From: Clostridium cylindrosporum DSM 605
GTDB lineage: Bacteria; Bacillota; Clostridia; Clostridiales; Caloramatoraceae
NCBI RefSeq assembly: GCF_001047375.1
Contig: NZ_LFVU01000026.1
Location: forward strand, 186,001 to 250,000
Direction of reading: 5' to 3'
DNA: 64,000 nt
In this document: one piece after another, positions 40,109 through 63,233 of the stretch
Numbering within the stretch: the stretch's first letter is position 1
How the letters are laid out: every line of letters starts with the position of its first letter
Made by a program: the position numbers and the translations under genes
Notes under the pieces: generated by a model
Databases searched by the model: none
The model's input: only the letters and a program-made list of their open reading frames with translations
What the model was told of the DNA's origin: nothing

Positions 40109-42229
40109 GTGGATAGTATCAATGTTAAGGAAGAATTTTTGAATATGAATTATGGTATATTTCACAAAGTATTTATCTATATACTATTCTTTATAGGGGC
40201 ATTGTACCTAGGAAAACAAAACTTTTTAGTATATCATACTTTAGTAGAGATTTTTGGTGTAGTTATTGGCTTTGTTATGGCAGTAATTTCTGTAAATACA
40301 TATAAGCTACGTAAAGGTAATAAAATAATATTTTTAGGAATTGTATTTGGATTTGTTGCTTTCATTGACTTAATACATTTGTTAGCATATCAAGGGATTA
40401 ATTATAGTAAAGTATTTACATTTAATACTTCCATGCAGGTTTGGTTAGTTGGAAGGTACATCCAAAGTACATCTTTTTTAATTTTCTTTATTTCAGGGGA
40501 TAAAATATATAATTTGGTAAAAGCATCAATTAACTGCTTAGTTATCTTAGGGGTATCTTTTATTACAATATTCTATATTAAAGTTTTTCCTGACTATTAT
40601 ATAGAGGCATCTGGATTTACATTTTTCAAGTCAATAACTGCTTATATAAATTGTGGAATCCTATTATTTATGTTAGTTTTTTCAAGAAGAAAAGGTTCTG
40701 ATAAATTAAGAAGGACAGACATATTTTTATATCTTTCCATAGTAAGTAGCTTAATTTGTGAAGTGCTTTTCATTTTTTCAGTTGAGAAATATGATTATTA
40801 TTGTATTTTAGCACATATATTTCAGTTATTATCATTTTACTACATATATGTTGCTTTGATTCAATCAAGTTTAAGAGAACCTCACTATGCCCTGATTGAA
40901 TTGAATAATGTACTGAAAAGTAAAAATGAGAACCTAAAAAGTCTAATTAAAAAGCTTGAATTAGAATATAAACAAAGAAGAGATTTAGAATATGAAAGGG
41001 AGAGAAAAAAACAAATACTAGATGGAATATTGGAATCGGTATTAGATGGCATATTAGTTATAAATATAGATAATAAAATAGTACATGTTAATAATCAATA
41101 TATAAAAATGCTAGATATCCCCTTCAAAATAACCTCTGAAACCACTAATTACGAATTAATAGAATATATTAAAAGTCAAATAAATAATCCAGATGAATTC
41201 GTAAATCATATAAGAAAAGAATGGCGAACACAGGATGAATATATACAACATATATACTTTAAAAATGGAAAGATACTAGAAACATCATCTCTTCCATTTA
41301 CTGAAAATAACATAGTTAATGGGAAAGTAATTATAGTTAGAGATATCACTGAGAAAAGAAAAATTGAGGATCTTCAAAGTCAGATACAGGTAAAGCAAGC
41401 ATTACTAGAAAAAGCAAGGGAGTTTGATGAACTAAAAACTAACTTTTTCTGTACTGTATCACATGAACTAAAAACCCCAATAAATATTATCCTAGGTGTG
41501 ATACAGCTGCTATCAGCTACGACAAAAAATGATTTAGAATACCTAAAGGAGCTTTCATCTAGTAAATATATAAATATGATGAAGCAAAACTGCTATAGGC
41601 TTATAAAACTTTCGAATAATCTAATCGATATTACCAAGATTGATGCAGGATATACTGAAATGAAAATAAAAAACCAGGATATTGTTTCTGTTATTGAAGA
41701 TATTACTTTATCAGTAGCTGAATATGTTAAGATAAAGGATATATCATTAGTGTTTGATACAGATATAGAAGAAAGAGTTTTTGCCTTTGATAGTGAGCAA
41801 TTAGAGAGAGTAATGCTTAATTTATTATCAAATGCAATTAAATTTACAGATTCAAAGGGAATGATAGAAGTTAATATAAAAAATAACGAGGAATCCGTGA
41901 TTATATCAGTAAGGGATAGTGGAATTGGAATTCCTGAGGATAAGATAGATATAGTATTTGATAGATTTAGACAGGTTGATACTATCCTAAGAAGAAGAAA
42001 AGAGGGAAGTGGAATTGGTCTTTCACTTGTAAAGTCTATAATAGAAAAGCATGGTGGAAGTATTTCACTAAAAAGCAAAATAGGTAGGGGGAGCGAGTTT
42101 ATTATTGAACTACCAATAAATGTGGTGGAGGATAATGATATTTTAGATGAAGTAAGTGCATCTAAAGAGATGAATGTTGATAGAATAAACATAGAGTTTT
42201 CTGATATATATGAATTAAATGTATACTAA
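40109..42229 (+). CDS. Membrane sensor histidine kinase (MASE3-PAS-HisKA-HATPase), orphan, copy 2
   Basis: 706 residues with the same architecture as copy 1: about eight helices to residue 245, a coiled coil (NENLKSLIKKLELEYKQRRD), PAS (GILESVLDGILVINIDNK), H452 in the H-box, N-box, DSGIGIP, and GSGIGLSLVKS. The tail is EMNVDRINIEFSDIYELNVY. The frame opens at 40079, but GTG 40109 after GGGGTGAGGG aligns with the starts of copies 1 and 3 and gives the histidine the same number. Insert differences in the DHp helix (LLSATTKNDLEYLKELSS) show that this part diverges fastest. No response regulator nearby. Confidence 0.93.
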   Translation: MDSINVKEEFLNMNYGIFHKVFIYILFFIGALYLGKQNFLVYHTLVEIFGVVIGFVMAVISVNTYKLRKGNKIIFLGIVFGFVAFIDLIHLLAYQGINYSKVFTFNTSMQVWLVGRYIQSTSFLIFFISGDKIYNLVKASINCLVILGVSFITIFYIKVFPDYYIEASGFTFFKSITAYINCGILLFMLVFSRRKGSDKLRRTDIFLYLSIVSSLICEVLFIFSVEKYDYYCILAHIFQLLSFYYIYVALIQSSLREPHYALIELNNVLKSKNENLKSLIKKLELEYKQRRDLEYERERKKQILDGILESVLDGILVINIDNKIVHVNNQYIKMLDIPFKITSETTNYELIEYIKSQINNPDEFVNHIRKEWRTQDEYIQHIYFKNGKILETSSLPFTENNIVNGKVIIVRDITEKRKIEDLQSQIQVKQALLEKAREFDELKTNFFCTVSHELKTPINIILGVIQLLSATTKNDLEYLKELSSSKYINMMKQNCYRLIKLSNNLIDITKIDAGYTEMKIKNQDIVSVIEDITLSVAEYVKIKDISLVFDTDIEERVFAFDSEQLERVMLNLLSNAIKFTDSKGMIEVNIKNNEESVIISVRDSGIGIPEDKIDIVFDRFRQVDTILRRRKEGSGIGLSLVKSIIEKHGGSISLKSKIGRGSEFIIELPINVVEDNDILDEVSASKEMNVDRINIEFSDIYELNVY

Positions 42230-57842: not shown

Positions 57843-57883
57843 ATAATAATTACTCTTGAAAAAATTTCCAGTGTAATTATTAT
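57843..57883 (+). promoter_or_regulatory. Dyad in the leader of the helicase gene
   Basis: ATAATAATTAC (57843-57853) and GTAATTATTAT (57873-57883) form a perfect 11-bp inverted repeat with a 19-nt loop, ending three bases before the ribosome site GAAGGGG. It could be an operator or an mRNA stem that controls translation. The interval 57689-57842 shows only a short 6-bp hairpin (57721-57740). Confidence 0.5.
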
Positions 57884-57900
57884 GTGAAGGGGATAGTATT

Positions 57901-58941
57901 TTGGCAATGGAAGGAATTTCTAAAAAGTGGATGGTTTCAGAAGCAGAGTTAGATGATGAACAATACAAAATAAGACAATTAAAGTTTGATAATTATCTTA
58001 TTGAGGGATGTGCAGGAAGCGGTAAAACTGTTTTGGCTTTACATAAAGCTAAAGAAATCCAAGATACAAAACGAGGTACTTATTTGGTAGTAATCTATAC
58101 TAAAGCCTTAAGAAGTTTTATAGAAGATGGTGTTAAAAGTTTAGGATTAGATGCTTCAAAGGTATGTCATTATGATGATTTATCTAGATCAGGTATTTCA
58201 TCTGCTGATTATATTATAGTAGATGAGGTACAGGATTTTTCAAGGGAAGAAATATCTAAGTTAATTAACATGGCAAACGAAAACTTTATCTTTTTTGGGG
58301 ATGATGCACAACAGATATATACATCAAAAACCCATAATATCACTTTAAGTGATATTGAGTCTATAGCCCAAATTGATAGTAAAAATCATAAGAGACTTGA
58401 TAAAAACTATCGTTTGCCGAGAAAAGTAGCTAAGTTTGCACAAAGCGTTACTGAAAAACAGAATAATATATTAAATAGATGTACTAGAATGGGTAAAGAA
58501 ATTCCTATGATTATAAAATGTAAAGGGTTATATCAGGAATTAGATTACATTATTAATACCATACAGAATGAAAGATGGAGTGATGTAGGTATTTTATTAG
58601 CAAGTAATAAGGAAGTTATAAGCGTAAAAGATTACTTTGAGAGTAAAGGTATTGATGTTGAGTACAAATATGATGAAAGGAGAAAAACCTATAATACTTT
58701 AGACTTCTATAGTAATAAGCCTAAAATACTTACCTATCATAGTTCAAAGGGATTACAATTTGAAAATGTCTTTTTACCTGCATGTGAAGTAAGAAGTGAT
58801 AGTATAAACTATAGCTATAAGGAGGCTTTATATGTAGCTGTTACTAGGACATGCAGCAATCTATTTATACTATATTCAAATGAATTATCTCCATTTTTAA
58901 AAAGTATTCCACGTGAATATTATGATTTTAAAGAATTTTAG
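57901..58941 (+). CDS. Compact SF1 (UvrD/Rep-like) helicase or ATPase
   Basis: 346 residues, about half the size of UvrD. SF1 motifs in order: GCAGSGKT (I, about 38-45), YIIVDEVQDF (II), FFGDDAQQIY (III), LDKNYRLPRKVA (IV), ILTYHSSKGLQFENVFLP (V), ALYVAVTRTCSNLFIL (VI). The 1B and 2B subdomains of UvrD are essentially missing, so it is a motor core or a regulatory ATPase. TTG 57901 after GAAGGGG is the likely start (ATG 57907 is the alternative). It is followed by the 599-residue gene after a 106-bp gap with a hairpin. Accessory rather than housekeeping, by comparison with full-length UvrD. Confidence 0.85.
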   Translation: MAMEGISKKWMVSEAELDDEQYKIRQLKFDNYLIEGCAGSGKTVLALHKAKEIQDTKRGTYLVVIYTKALRSFIEDGVKSLGLDASKVCHYDDLSRSGISSADYIIVDEVQDFSREEISKLINMANENFIFFGDDAQQIYTSKTHNITLSDIESIAQIDSKNHKRLDKNYRLPRKVAKFAQSVTEKQNNILNRCTRMGKEIPMIIKCKGLYQELDYIINTIQNERWSDVGILLASNKEVISVKDYFESKGIDVEYKYDERRKTYNTLDFYSNKPKILTYHSSKGLQFENVFLPACEVRSDSINYSYKEALYVAVTRTCSNLFILYSNELSPFLKSIPREYYDFKEF

Positions 58942-58974
58942 TGTAATAAGATTATAAATATACATTTGTAGTTG

Positions 58975-59012
58975 CTCCCAGTTTTTAGGCTATATATTAT
59001 AAGGACTGGGAG
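58975..59012 (+). other. Hairpin between helicase and 599-residue gene
   Basis: CTCCCAGT / ACTGGGAG (58975-58982 with 59005-59012), 8-bp G/C-rich stem, 22-nt loop, no U-tract. It is the most GC-rich element in the cassette. An attenuator, processing site or small RNA are possible. Confidence 0.45.
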
Positions 59013-59047
59013 TTAGCTTTATAATTTAATATATAAGGAGAAAAAGT

Positions 59048-60847
59048 ATGAAATTATATTTTCCAACTTCATCTTTGAATTTTAACGATATTTTTGCTAC
59101 AGAAAGTATATCTCCAAGAGCATTTTATGAAAAAAGAACATATGGGACAAAAAGACACTTTGGAACTGAGTTATCGATTGGCAATAAGTTTATAACATTA
59201 TTCTCAAAGGTTCCTAGTTTTAAATTAGCTGACAGCTTAGAGTCAGAATACGAGGAGTACCCTATAATTTTTGAATTTGATATTGATGATATAGAATATG
59301 AATTAGATAAGGTTTCACAAGATGTATATATTACATCAAAAACAATATACTTCAATAAGTCGAATACAAAGGTTTTATTTTTATCACAAGTACATTTGGA
59401 TAGAATTTTAGCAAAGTCTAAAACTGTGTATGAAACTAAGCTAATAATTAAATATATAGATAAGTTTGAAGTAATAAAGGATTTATATCTTAATAATATA
59501 GAATTAGATGAAAATAAAGATTGTGAGTATACTCAAAGTGATATTGAAATTGAAATAATAAAAGATACGCTTTTTAACAATGTTAAAGGACTATATTATG
59601 CATATGCTATTAGGAGATGTATAGACCAATACATCAGGAAAGCGGAAGAATATAATCTAATGTTAAAATATATATCACCAGTTAAGAATTTAATAGGATT
59701 CTATAAAAAAACCAATACAAAATATAGTGAGATATTTATAGATAAATTTACTTTTGATATTAAATATATAGAAAGATATTCAGAGCTTTTAAGAGAAGAG
59801 TGTGATGAGTTTAATAACTGGTTAAATGTAATTGATGTTAATAATAATGAGATAAGTTTTTGCGATATAGGACTAAAAGATTCAGAGGAATTAAAAGTTT
59901 ATGAAATTATTACTAACTGTATAATGAAAAGCCCAAAGTCTAAAGTTGGTGATATAGATAAGGAAGAGATAGAGGAGTTAATTAAAGGTATTGGAAAAGA
60001 AATTACAAAGCAATTTGGAGAAGAATCTTTGCAAAGAAAAGAATGTGCATTAATTTATAAAAAAATTGCAAATAGAATGTATGAGATAGATGTTAATGAA
60101 ATTACTTCTGATGTCCTTCAAAACTTCCTAGCTTTTATTTCTAAGTATGATAACATTAGTGATATGAATGATTACTTGCAGTATAAGAATATTAAATATG
60201 ATTATGTAGCATATTCTTTCTTAGGTGCATTTTTAGGTTTTTCTGGATTAGATAAGAATATATTTTATAATTTATTTAATAGTAGTAATGAAAAGATTCT
60301 AGAAACTATCGATAATAATTTAGATAAATTAAGAAAAGAAATTTATTTTAAAAATGAAGAACCTTCTAAATATGAAGAAAATAGTGGGGGAACTTTAGAG
60401 CCTATAGATGCCACTGAAAATAAAGGTGTAGTAGACGATGTCGAAAGTAAAAATGTATTAGAAGATAATGTGGTTAAGAAAGGAATATATGAAGAAATTC
60501 AAAGAATAAGAAAAGATAAAAAAATAAAGGATATTTTGAAGAAGAGTTTTATTGATGTTAAGAGTAGAATACAAGTAAAGATAGAGAACTTAGAATCCAA
60601 TATTAGAATTACAGTACCTGAATCCGAGAATTTTAAAACTATGTATGTTTATTTAATACATAAAGATAGTATCCAAGAAGGGGAAAGGGAAGAATTTAAA
60701 AAGCAATTAAATGATATAGGTATAATTAATAATAGAATTCAAGGAAATTATCCTATTTATAGGTATAATAAGTTTTTTGAAGATAATGTATTTACTCTAA
60801 ACCTTGAGGAAGAAGAGTTTTTATTGGAATGTTTAAAAGATATGTAG
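59048..60847 (+). CDS. Unknown 599-residue partner of the compact helicase
   Basis: A soluble protein with no family I recognise. The N-terminal stretch MKLYFPTSSLNFNDIFATES and the following ISPRAFYEKRTYGTKRHFG looks conserved and structured, perhaps an enzymatic head. A helical middle (about 130-420) follows. A low-complexity Glu/Asn/Val-rich hinge spans about 440-480 (EENSGGTLEP, DATENKGVVDDVESK). A charged C-terminal domain (about 495-599) ends the protein. It is very rich in Lys, Ile, Asn and Glu, more AT-rich than its neighbours, compatible with transfer. AAGGAG precedes ATG 59048. A terminator follows, so helicase plus this gene form a two-gene unit. Confidence 0.8.
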   Translation: MKLYFPTSSLNFNDIFATESISPRAFYEKRTYGTKRHFGTELSIGNKFITLFSKVPSFKLADSLESEYEEYPIIFEFDIDDIEYELDKVSQDVYITSKTIYFNKSNTKVLFLSQVHLDRILAKSKTVYETKLIIKYIDKFEVIKDLYLNNIELDENKDCEYTQSDIEIEIIKDTLFNNVKGLYYAYAIRRCIDQYIRKAEEYNLMLKYISPVKNLIGFYKKTNTKYSEIFIDKFTFDIKYIERYSELLREECDEFNNWLNVIDVNNNEISFCDIGLKDSEELKVYEIITNCIMKSPKSKVGDIDKEEIEELIKGIGKEITKQFGEESLQRKECALIYKKIANRMYEIDVNEITSDVLQNFLAFISKYDNISDMNDYLQYKNIKYDYVAYSFLGAFLGFSGLDKNIFYNLFNSSNEKILETIDNNLDKLRKEIYFKNEEPSKYEENSGGTLEPIDATENKGVVDDVESKNVLEDNVVKKGIYEEIQRIRKDKKIKDILKKSFIDVKSRIQVKIENLESNIRITVPESENFKTMYVYLIHKDSIQEGEREEFKKQLNDIGIINNRIQGNYPIYRYNKFFEDNVFTLNLEEEEFLLECLKDM

Positions 60848-60930
60848 TAAATTTTTTTACATAAAATAGCTTAAATTTTCAACAGATAGGGGCTTATCAA
60901 TAAACTTCTCATAGTATAGTTATATAATTA

Positions 60931-60970
60931 AAATAGTAGTAACCATTTGAAATTGGAGCTACTATTTTTT
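60931..60970 (+). terminator. Terminator of the helicase cassette
   Basis: AAATAGTAG / CTACTATTT (60931-60939 with 60959-60967) with an inner CCA..TTGG element and a run of T. Confidence 0.82.
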
Positions 60971-61199: not shown

Positions 61200-63233
61200 A
61201 TGGATTTATTAATGACAGTATTATTATTGCTTGTTTGTTTATTAATTTCCAGTGTAATTAGCCATTACATACCATTTATTCCTACAGCTTTAACTCAAAT
61301 AGCTTTTGGAATAATAATTGCACTTGTATTTAAAAATGTTTCAGTGGAAATAGAAACAGAGTGGTTTTTGCTACTATTTGTAGCACCTCTTTTATATAAT
61401 GATGGGAGGCATTTCCCAAATGAAGAGTTGTGGAAGATGAGGGTACCAATACTAGGTAATGCAATTGTACTTGTGCTTTTAACAACTATTGGTGGAGGGT
61501 ATTTTATTTACTGGGTTATACCAGATATTCCTCTTGCTGCATCATTTGCATTAGCGGCTATTTTATCACCTACTGATCCTGTATCTGTAAATGGTATCGC
61601 TAAAAGAATTCATATTCCAGAAAAGGTACTGAATCTTGTTAGAGGAGAATCTCTAATAAATGATGCATCAGGATTAGTTGCCTTTAACTATGCAGTTACT
61701 GCGGTAGTAACTGGATACTTCTCACTACAAAAAGCACTTTTTGATTTTTCATATACGTTTTTTGTAGGGGCTATCCTAGGATTAGTTCTTAGTCTTCTTA
61801 TATCATGGATAGAATTTACTCTACGCAAACAGGGTATAAATGATGTTATATTTCATTCACTCCTTCAAATAATGACTCCATTTATTATTTTTATAATTAC
61901 AGAAAAAATGCTACATGCATCAGGAGTTATTGCTGTAGTAGTAGCCGGTGTTGTGCACTCTTTAAGAAGAGCAAGAGTAGAAGCTAAGGCGGCGCAGCAA
62001 CAATTACTTACAGAGAGTCTTTGGTCAACTGTTATATTTATTCTAAATGGGATTGTATTCTTATTATTAGGATTAAACATTCCTTCATCAATGGATGAAA
62101 CTGTAGCTAATCCTAATATAAGCAATTGGTTAGCTGTAGGATATGTAATTGCAATCGGTGTTAGTATACTAGGGATTCGATTTATTTGGTCTTATATATT
62201 TTCTAACTATGAATATTACATTAGAAGAGTAAATGATTGTGCAAAGCCAAGTATTAAAGCATCATTATTAATTAGTTTAACTGGTGTTCGTGGCGGAGTT
62301 ACAATGGCAGGGGTTTTATCAATACCTTATCTTTTAATGAGTGGAGAAGAATTTCCACAGCGTTCACTTATTCTCTTTTTAGCAGCTGGGGTTATCTTGT
62401 TTACACTAATTATTGCAACGGTGTTTTTACCTCTCTTAAGTAAAGTAGAGGTTGTAGAAGGTGAGGAAAAGGGCCTAATTGATATAAATGAGGCAAAAAG
62501 TAGACTTTTAATAGCAGCTATTAAAAAGATTAAGGAAGAAATAAATGAGGAAAATAGATCCGCAGCCTATGAGTTAATTAATGAATATAGAGTTATGTTT
62601 CAAAATACTCATCATGAAGAAAATTCAATTGAAAAAGGTTCAAGTGAATATCAACAGAGATTAAGAGAAGTACTATTAAAGGCTTTAAAAGCAGAAAGAA
62701 AGTACATTCATGATTTAAGAGAAAAGAATGGAATAGATGAAGAAGTCTTTAAAACATTTGAAAAATCTCTTGATCATAGAGAAGAAGCTATATCAAATAA
62801 TGTTCTGTCTCGTACAAGATATCTTATTGGGAAAATAATAAGGAGCTTAAAGGACTATTTTAGTCGTTATAATAAAAATAGTGAAAGTAAAGCTACACAG
62901 CTACGTCTAGCAAAGGATATTCAAGTAAAGGTTTTATATAAGGTTCTTAGGAGATTAGCAGAGTATGCAAAGGAATATGAAAGACCGGAGATTGTTTTAT
63001 CAGTGATTTTAGACTATAGAAAAATGGTTAATCGATTAAAAAGATCAACAACATCCTATAATCAAGAAATTGAAGTGCAGAAAGAAGAATTAAGGATTAA
63101 GGTTATAGATGTAGAGCGCTCTGAAATTCATAGAATGTATGAACTCGGTGAGATTAGTAGAGAACAGGTAAAGGAATTAAGAAGAGTTATTAACTATATT
63201 GAAAGTGTTACTTTATATGAACACGTTGAATAA
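61200..63233 (+). CDS. CPA1-family Na+(K+)/H+ antiporter (NhaK/NhaP-like)
   Basis: 677 residues. Twelve or so helices fill 1-415, with the CPA1 motifs FAPLLYNDGRHF-like VAPLLYNDGRH, ALAAILSPTDPVSV and ESLINDASGLVAFNYAV (the ion-binding Asp of ND). A long cytoplasmic C-terminal domain of about 250 residues (coiled and charged) follows. This regulatory tail is typical of NhaK-type exchangers. It exports Na+ or K+ in exchange for protons. AAAGGGGG precedes ATG 61200. It is followed at 22 bases by a polysaccharide deacetylase in the same operon. Confidence 0.93.
   Translation: MDLLMTVLLLLVCLLISSVISHYIPFIPTALTQIAFGIIIALVFKNVSVEIETEWFLLLFVAPLLYNDGRHFPNEELWKMRVPILGNAIVLVLLTTIGGGYFIYWVIPDIPLAASFALAAILSPTDPVSVNGIAKRIHIPEKVLNLVRGESLINDASGLVAFNYAVTAVVTGYFSLQKALFDFSYTFFVGAILGLVLSLLISWIEFTLRKQGINDVIFHSLLQIMTPFIIFIITEKMLHASGVIAVVVAGVVHSLRRARVEAKAAQQQLLTESLWSTVIFILNGIVFLLLGLNIPSSMDETVANPNISNWLAVGYVIAIGVSILGIRFIWSYIFSNYEYYIRRVNDCAKPSIKASLLISLTGVRGGVTMAGVLSIPYLLMSGEEFPQRSLILFLAAGVILFTLIIATVFLPLLSKVEVVEGEEKGLIDINEAKSRLLIAAIKKIKEEINEENRSAAYELINEYRVMFQNTHHEENSIEKGSSEYQQRLREVLLKALKAERKYIHDLREKNGIDEEVFKTFEKSLDHREEAISNNVLSRTRYLIGKIIRSLKDYFSRYNKNSESKATQLRLAKDIQVKVLYKVLRRLAEYAKEYERPEIVLSVILDYRKMVNRLKRSTTSYNQEIEVQKEELRIKVIDVERSEIHRMYELGEISREQVKELRRVINYIESVTLYEHVE

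Follow-up and report, generated by a model that had tools for sequence, protein, structure and literature searches.

A conserved SF1 ATPase gene paired with a predicted DarT-like and ADP-ribosylhydrolase-like fusion: a candidate anti-phage cassette in Clostridium cylindrosporum

What might a pared-down UvrD-like ATPase do beside a 599-residue protein that sequence searches fail to place? The question is raised by two adjacent plus-strand genes of Clostridium cylindrosporum DSM 605, which lie in the 64,000-nucleotide stretch analysed here (the window; contig NZ_LFVU01000026.1, positions 186,001 to 250,000). A first-pass annotation made from the letters alone had taken them for an accessory unit of the helicase-plus-effector kind known from the phage defence systems Gabija and Hachiman. 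The open reading frames (ORFs) have the positions and sizes it gave, a 346-residue ATPase followed after 106 nt by the 599-residue protein (hereafter the partner), and the two-gene design holds: our results support a conserved helicase-plus-effector unit that is left unnamed by the defence models searched. The choice of relatives does not hold, because the folds predicted for the partner, one like that of the ADP-ribosyltransferase DarT and one like that of the ADP-ribosylhydrolases (ARHs), make DarT the closest design and not Gabija or Hachiman. We infer that the cassette serves in defence.

The partner's domains were assigned from AlphaFold2 models and structure comparison. When residues 1–148 were modelled alone, DarT structures took ranks 1–6 in Foldseek and ranks 1–7 in VIA, which points to a DarT-like ADP-ribosyltransferase fold, and the middle region is predicted to adopt an ARH-like fold. 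The first-pass annotation had been unable to place this protein, and by sequence that is still so: searches of Pfam, NCBIfam and PADLOC at E≤1 leave it unmatched, its ARH-like region has no match to the Pfam ARH model (PF03747), and the DarT model PF14487 matches neither the partner nor any of 27 relatives nor anything in the window's genome. No characterised non-defence family was matched either. A single PHROG match (9011, E 0.1) is at chance level, and chance was also our judgement of six PDB sequence matches (E 0.012–0.52; designed repeat proteins and others) and of single-member Pfam matches among the partner's relatives (best 4.9e-4). Homologue clusters number 29 around the window partner and 181 around a gut relative, the query being counted in each. 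From these we built alignment A1 (27 of the 29 partner homologues, P0018 and P0022 being left out), alignment A2 (19 rows, namely 18 gut-type homologues from the best 120 of 181, plus P0029) and alignment A3 (41 rows). Against PDB sequences the A1 and A2 profiles reached E 0.21 and 0.18 at best. The listed homologue rows that carry a source name read 'hypothetical protein', with the exception of P0021, whose UniRef label (DUF2357) received no backing from Pfam.

A candidate active site can be traced in the DarT-like domain. According to the excerpt of PMC9967889, T15/H13 and N19 of DarT bind the adenine-side ribose of NAD+, and R51 and E160 are required. Our comparison with DarT drew on 12 of 18 loci (fragments, in-frame stops and domains in longer ORFs were left out). 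T7 and N11 of the partner are spaced as T15 and N19, and T7, N11, R30 and E129 may form an NAD+ site corresponding to T15, N19, R51 and E160. All four residues are kept in every one of the 27 A1 rows, the window's own branch, and R30 is also invariant in A3 (41/41). E129 is replaced in 18 of the 19 A2 rows, P0029 being the exception, and two prophage variants (L005 and L006) keep E129 and K131 and lose T7, R30 and residues 22–42, with N11 lost in one of them. The whole candidate site is thus confined to A1, since the second branch and the prophage variants each lose residues. These variants (L005:1390-2931 and L006:1354-2898), which lack the Arg-bearing loop and keep the core, constitute a natural loss-of-site branch.

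The GDALG, DDT and DxDT motifs seen in the ARHs compared serve as metal ligands, and in a comparison with 16 of 26 ARH loci, under the same exclusions, the DxDT block of true ARHs was found to be replaced in both partner branches, which hold at most one Asp each, not constant across rows. The first two motifs fall outside the profile alignment and were judged from conservation only; in the ARH-like region as aligned in A1, no acid other than D173 stands at a nearly invariant position. Because the three motifs are not kept, the ARH-like domain most likely does not act as a hydrolase. Elsewhere the window's genome does carry a typical ARH hydrolase gene (L044, G000:C4:128306-129145; PF03747 E 1.1e-74).

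The ATPase was correctly described as UvrD-like. Its Pfam matches lie far beyond chance (Viral_helicase1 9e-16, UvrD_C 3.1e-13), and in sequence searches of Pfam, NCBIfam and the PDB it comes nearest to the cores of HelD, UvrD and viral RNA helicases. Motifs I, II, III, V and VI of superfamily 1 (SF1) are present, and Walker A, DExQD, GDxxQ, KGLxF and YVAxTR keep the same core residues throughout the six loci that were read (the window and L002–L006). The ORF opens with TTG, with an ATG two codons further in, and to judge from length and motif spacing, a protein of about 340 residues probably comprises little beyond two RecA-type domains. Among PADLOC models a NERD+UvrD candidate ranks best (2.5e-22), with GajB (6e-18) and AbiO after it. 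These matches all run through the motor core, which is common to many defence helicases, and the ATPase therefore does not identify the system.

The two genes are adjacent in all six loci. Five of these were located via the partner, so that they test for a helicase beside the partner; helicase-led searches test the reverse. Of 99 genomes related to the window's, four are matched by the partner profile, namely G000, G041, G046 and one weak match that we judged spurious (G018; E 3e-4 over 45 positions, in an ORF resembling an unrelated regulator); a helicase search at E≤1e-25 returns G000, G041 and G046 out of 98. In the order to which the L003 genome belongs, where at most four first candidates for the partner and seven for the helicase were scored per genome, each gene occurs in one of 299 genomes, the identical one. 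Of 50,697 phage records, one contains the partner (E≤1e-3) and one the helicase (E≤1e-20); it is the same record, with the genes 2 nt apart. Compared by eye, 13 of the 29 partner clusters, the window's included, have a longest contig of exactly the same length as one of the 120 helicase clusters listed; clustering, the extent of the helicase listing or true absence may explain the other 16. The helicase family is the larger, with 755 members at E≤1e-30, and other partners therefore probably exist for it. Beyond the window, further Bacillota genomes, prophages and an integrase-bearing gut element also carry the pair, and the genes lie 14 nt (L002), 6 nt (L005) and 2 nt (L004) apart, the smaller first.

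The first-pass annotation had suggested looking for defence-island neighbours, and defence-type modules adjoin the cassette in four of the six loci. In Paenibacillus tritici (L002) and Bacillus sp. FJAT-27445 (L003) it is divergent from a 111-residue gene and a HigA-peptidase gene, the latter matching PADLOC PD-Lambda-2_B (1.6e-36 and 9.6e-29, respectively). The 111-residue gene is HigB-like by size and position, with no Pfam match above cutoff and no NCBIfam or PADLOC support; as excerpted, PMC9519451 describes the PD-lambda-2 defence system as a HigB-like protein, a HigA-peptidase and a third protein. An identical 27-nt block with the palindrome ATTAACCAA-N-TTGGTTAAT occurs in both genera (L002:8820-8930, L003:8809-8950), in the divergent promoter region between the cassette and the HigA-peptidase genes. 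Prophage tail and endolysin/holin genes (Pfam Prophage_tail, Amidase_2, Phage_holin_4_1) precede the pair in G041 and G046, and a five-gene prophage cargo keeps its order in two copies (L066:7907-12268, L067:716-5046): helicase, shortened partner, 119-residue protein, M78 peptidase and PIN-like protein. Only its place, its length and, in one copy, a weak PDC-M69A match make the 119-residue protein helix-turn-helix-like; the M78 peptidase matches the capP and PDC-M69B models, and the last protein has a PIN-like start by eye, with no Pfam match. Single-stranded DNA activates CapP, which cuts the repressor CapH next to immune operons (excerpt of PMC13373217). The gut element (L004) bears a tyrosine integrase, and a 418-residue methyltransferase-like protein is encoded directly upstream of its helicase (L004:3701-4957). 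The window copy has none of these HigA-peptidase, M78, phage or integrase neighbours and is bordered, by Pfam, by a ThrE-type exporter gene and a Na+/H+ antiporter gene.

How does this arrangement compare with known systems? Among the solved structures listed, residues 1–148 match DarT best, with T, N and R conserved at plausible equivalent positions, and by this likeness to DarT1 and DarT2 nucleic acid is a plausible substrate. The differences are considerable, however: the partner has no sequence-level DarT match, its DarT-like domain has 148 residues instead of about 200 and is fused to an ARH-like domain, and the gene beside it encodes an SF1 ATPase and not the macrodomain or NADAR antitoxin of DarTG. 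Neither a macrodomain (DarG) nor a NADAR antitoxin was seen at the loci, where the scanned neighbours are of other types and the remaining ORFs were judged by eye. The ARH family itself (ARH3, DraG; PF03747) is matched by the modelled fold but not by its acidic metal-ligand motifs. The titles of PDB entries 8za7 and 6dre name the same two folds together, but as a toxin and immunity pair, whereas here they would form a single chain with a helicase as partner gene. Gabija likewise has two genes, one of them a UvrD-like SF1 ATPase whose GajB models match the core of ours, but Pfam and PADLOC found neither an OLD ATPase nor TOPRIM in the partner, the ATPase has 346 residues against 369–685 positions in the GajB models listed, and the NERD+UvrD model outscores them. 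Hachiman differs in that HamB is an SF2 helicase, whereas the motifs here are those of SF1, and no HamA domain (DUF1837) is present in the partner. The earlier observation that OLD-nuclease and DUF1837 signatures are missing was thus sound, and both identities are rejected. CmdTAC is a phage defence system with an ADP-ribosyltransferase effector (PMC11618068; excerpt of PMC9519451), but it has an antitoxin and a chaperone, whose regulatory places might here be filled by the SF1 ATPase and the ARH-like domain.

We propose for the cassette the role of an abortive anti-phage switch: on engaging foreign nucleic acid, the helicase would license the transferase to ADP-ribosylate it, a proposal on which we ourselves stand evenly divided. 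The SF1 motor would load on exposed or foreign nucleic acid, such as phage DNA, supplying or sensing single strands, and would either change the conformation of the partner or feed it those strands. The DarT-fold transferase, restrained within its own chain by the ARH-like domain, would then modify nucleic acid, the presumed substrate by analogy with DarT1 and DarT2, and phage replication would be blocked or the infected cell arrested. The ARH-like domain, probably no longer a hydrolase, could restrain the transferase from within or recognise the ADP-ribosylated product. This order of events is suggested by the pairing of a motor gene with that of a predicted DarT-fold transferase, which the ARH-like domain in its chain would hold in check.

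The alternative that survives best, unlikely as we think it, takes the partner for a non-catalytic reader of NAD+, ADP-ribose or ADP-ribosylated nucleic acid, with the ATPase removing or repairing what has been recognised; the pair would then be a safeguard against toxins or phage enzymes that ADP-ribosylate. The ARH-like domain without conserved metal-ligand acids would fit such a protein, and two observations favour it at the expense of the switch, namely the loss of the Glu in nearly all second-branch rows and the loss of the Arg, with residues 22–42, in the two Clostridial prophage variants, where the partner core and the helicase motifs persist. Constancy of T7, N11, R30 and E129 throughout the window's branch nevertheless exceeds what a pure binding domain needs, and four of the six loci stand beside toxin-antitoxin-like or damage-responsive defence modules. 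It is improbable, in our estimation, that the cassette is a toxin-antitoxin pair whose toxin is the partner, an ADP-ribosyltransferase with constitutive activity, held by the ATPase as antitoxin until phage attack disturbs the latter. DarT offers a precedent as the toxin of such a pair (excerpt of PMC9967889), and the genes are tightly coupled, smaller first, in L002, L005 and L004. The ATPase, however, keeps catalytic SF1 motifs that mere binding would not require, and the window genes stand 106 nt apart with a hairpin between them. We give least credence to a mobile-element fitness module with no part in defence, such as a factor that assists prophages or integrative elements in replicating or recombining. 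In its favour, two of the six loci lie in prophages by their tail and lysis genes, a third belongs to an integrase-bearing element and a 17-nt direct repeat flanks the window copy. Against it, a reading of the ORF lists of the window, L002 and L003 reveals no genes for phage structural proteins nearby, it is hard to see what an ADP-ribosyltransferase fold would do in replication, and the prophage loci occupy the position after the lysis genes where prophages often carry accessory cargo.

If the abortive switch is the right reading, the cassette might further represent a new immune class, a suggestion that we put forward tentatively and would not yet bet on: an SF1 motor licensing a DarT-fold transferase that carries its own catalytically dead ARH brake or reader, with transferase, regulator and nucleic-acid sensor combined in two genes whose spread, along with prophages and integrative elements, reaches from Bacillota to Bacteroidales of the gut. 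Defence based on ADP-ribosyltransferases is already known; new here would be the helicase as partner gene and the fusion to an ARH-like domain. In the open PMC library, titles and abstract starts among the matches listed contained no DarT-helicase pair or DarT-ARH fusion, and the sole paper joining the words DarT, UvrD and operon treats DarT and UvrD apart, in other systems, as far as its excerpt goes. Such a class would constitute a helicase-coupled branch of ADP-ribosylation immunity that sequence searches overlook. It would also couple the tagging of DNA by DarT-type enzymes with a motor protein, suggest a way of keeping such a toxin off without a separate antitoxin, and give an example of the ARH fold reused as a regulatory domain.

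Table 1. Features of the cassette and its flanks (window coordinates).
Feature	Position	Strand	Remarks
Leader dyad	57843..57883	+	19-nt inverted-repeat arms, 89% complementary; overlaps promoter-like match
Promoter-like TTGAAA-N16-TATTAT	57856-57883	+	Consensus match only
17-nt exact direct repeat, upstream copy	57863..57879	+	Inside leader dyad
SF1 (UvrD/HelD-like) ATPase, 346 aa	57901..58941	+	Pfam, motifs
ATPase Walker A, GCAGSGKT	58006..58029	+	Residues 36-43
ATPase motif II, DEVQD	58222..58236	+	Residues 108-112
ATPase motif V region	58732..58761	+	Residues 278-287
ATPase motif VI, YVAVTR	58831..58848	+	Residues 311-316
Intergenic hairpin between ATPase and partner genes	58975..59012	+	Containing stretch folds at -21.5 kcal/mol
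Partner, 599 aa	59048..60847	+	DarT-like + ARH-like + C-terminal domain
Predicted DarT-like ADP-ribosyltransferase fold	59048..59491	+	Partner residues 1-148; conserved T7, N11, R30, E129
Predicted ARH-like fold	59558..60355	+	Partner residues 171-436; without conserved metal-ligand acids
C-terminal alpha/beta domain	60446..60844	+	Partner residues 467-599; fold not assigned; differs in second branch
Hairpin then T-run closing the pair, likely terminator	60930..60968	+	Strict scan reports none
17-nt exact direct repeat, downstream copy	61244..61260	+	Within start of Na+/H+ antiporter gene

The control elements named by the first-pass annotation fared variously. Its leader dyad and intergenic hairpin are present. 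The terminator that it saw closing the pair has a hairpin with a T-run in its favour, but a strict scan of the region (at least three G-C pairs, loop of 3–8) reported zero terminators. Promoter-like matches in the region are no more frequent than in shuffled sequence (35 against an expected 27.8 ± 5.4). Its description of the partner as AT-rich and rich in Ile and Lys is accurate (Ile 11.5%, Lys 11.0%), but Glu (11.0%) and not Asn (7.8%) joins them; the GC content of the gene is 24.9% against 30.9% for the window, and ranks second from the bottom among 208 overlapping, similarly sized windows. The 17-nt repeat that flanks the cassette has just two sites in the 2.7-Mb genome at up to two mismatches, as has its reversed control pattern at the same laxity. 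It may be an insertion footprint, which we suspect because the second copy sits in the start of the antiporter gene. Elsewhere in the window, four exact direct repeats of 20–23 nt (41423-42213 and +3505) keep a constant spacing of 3505 nt and probably reflect two paralogous genes.

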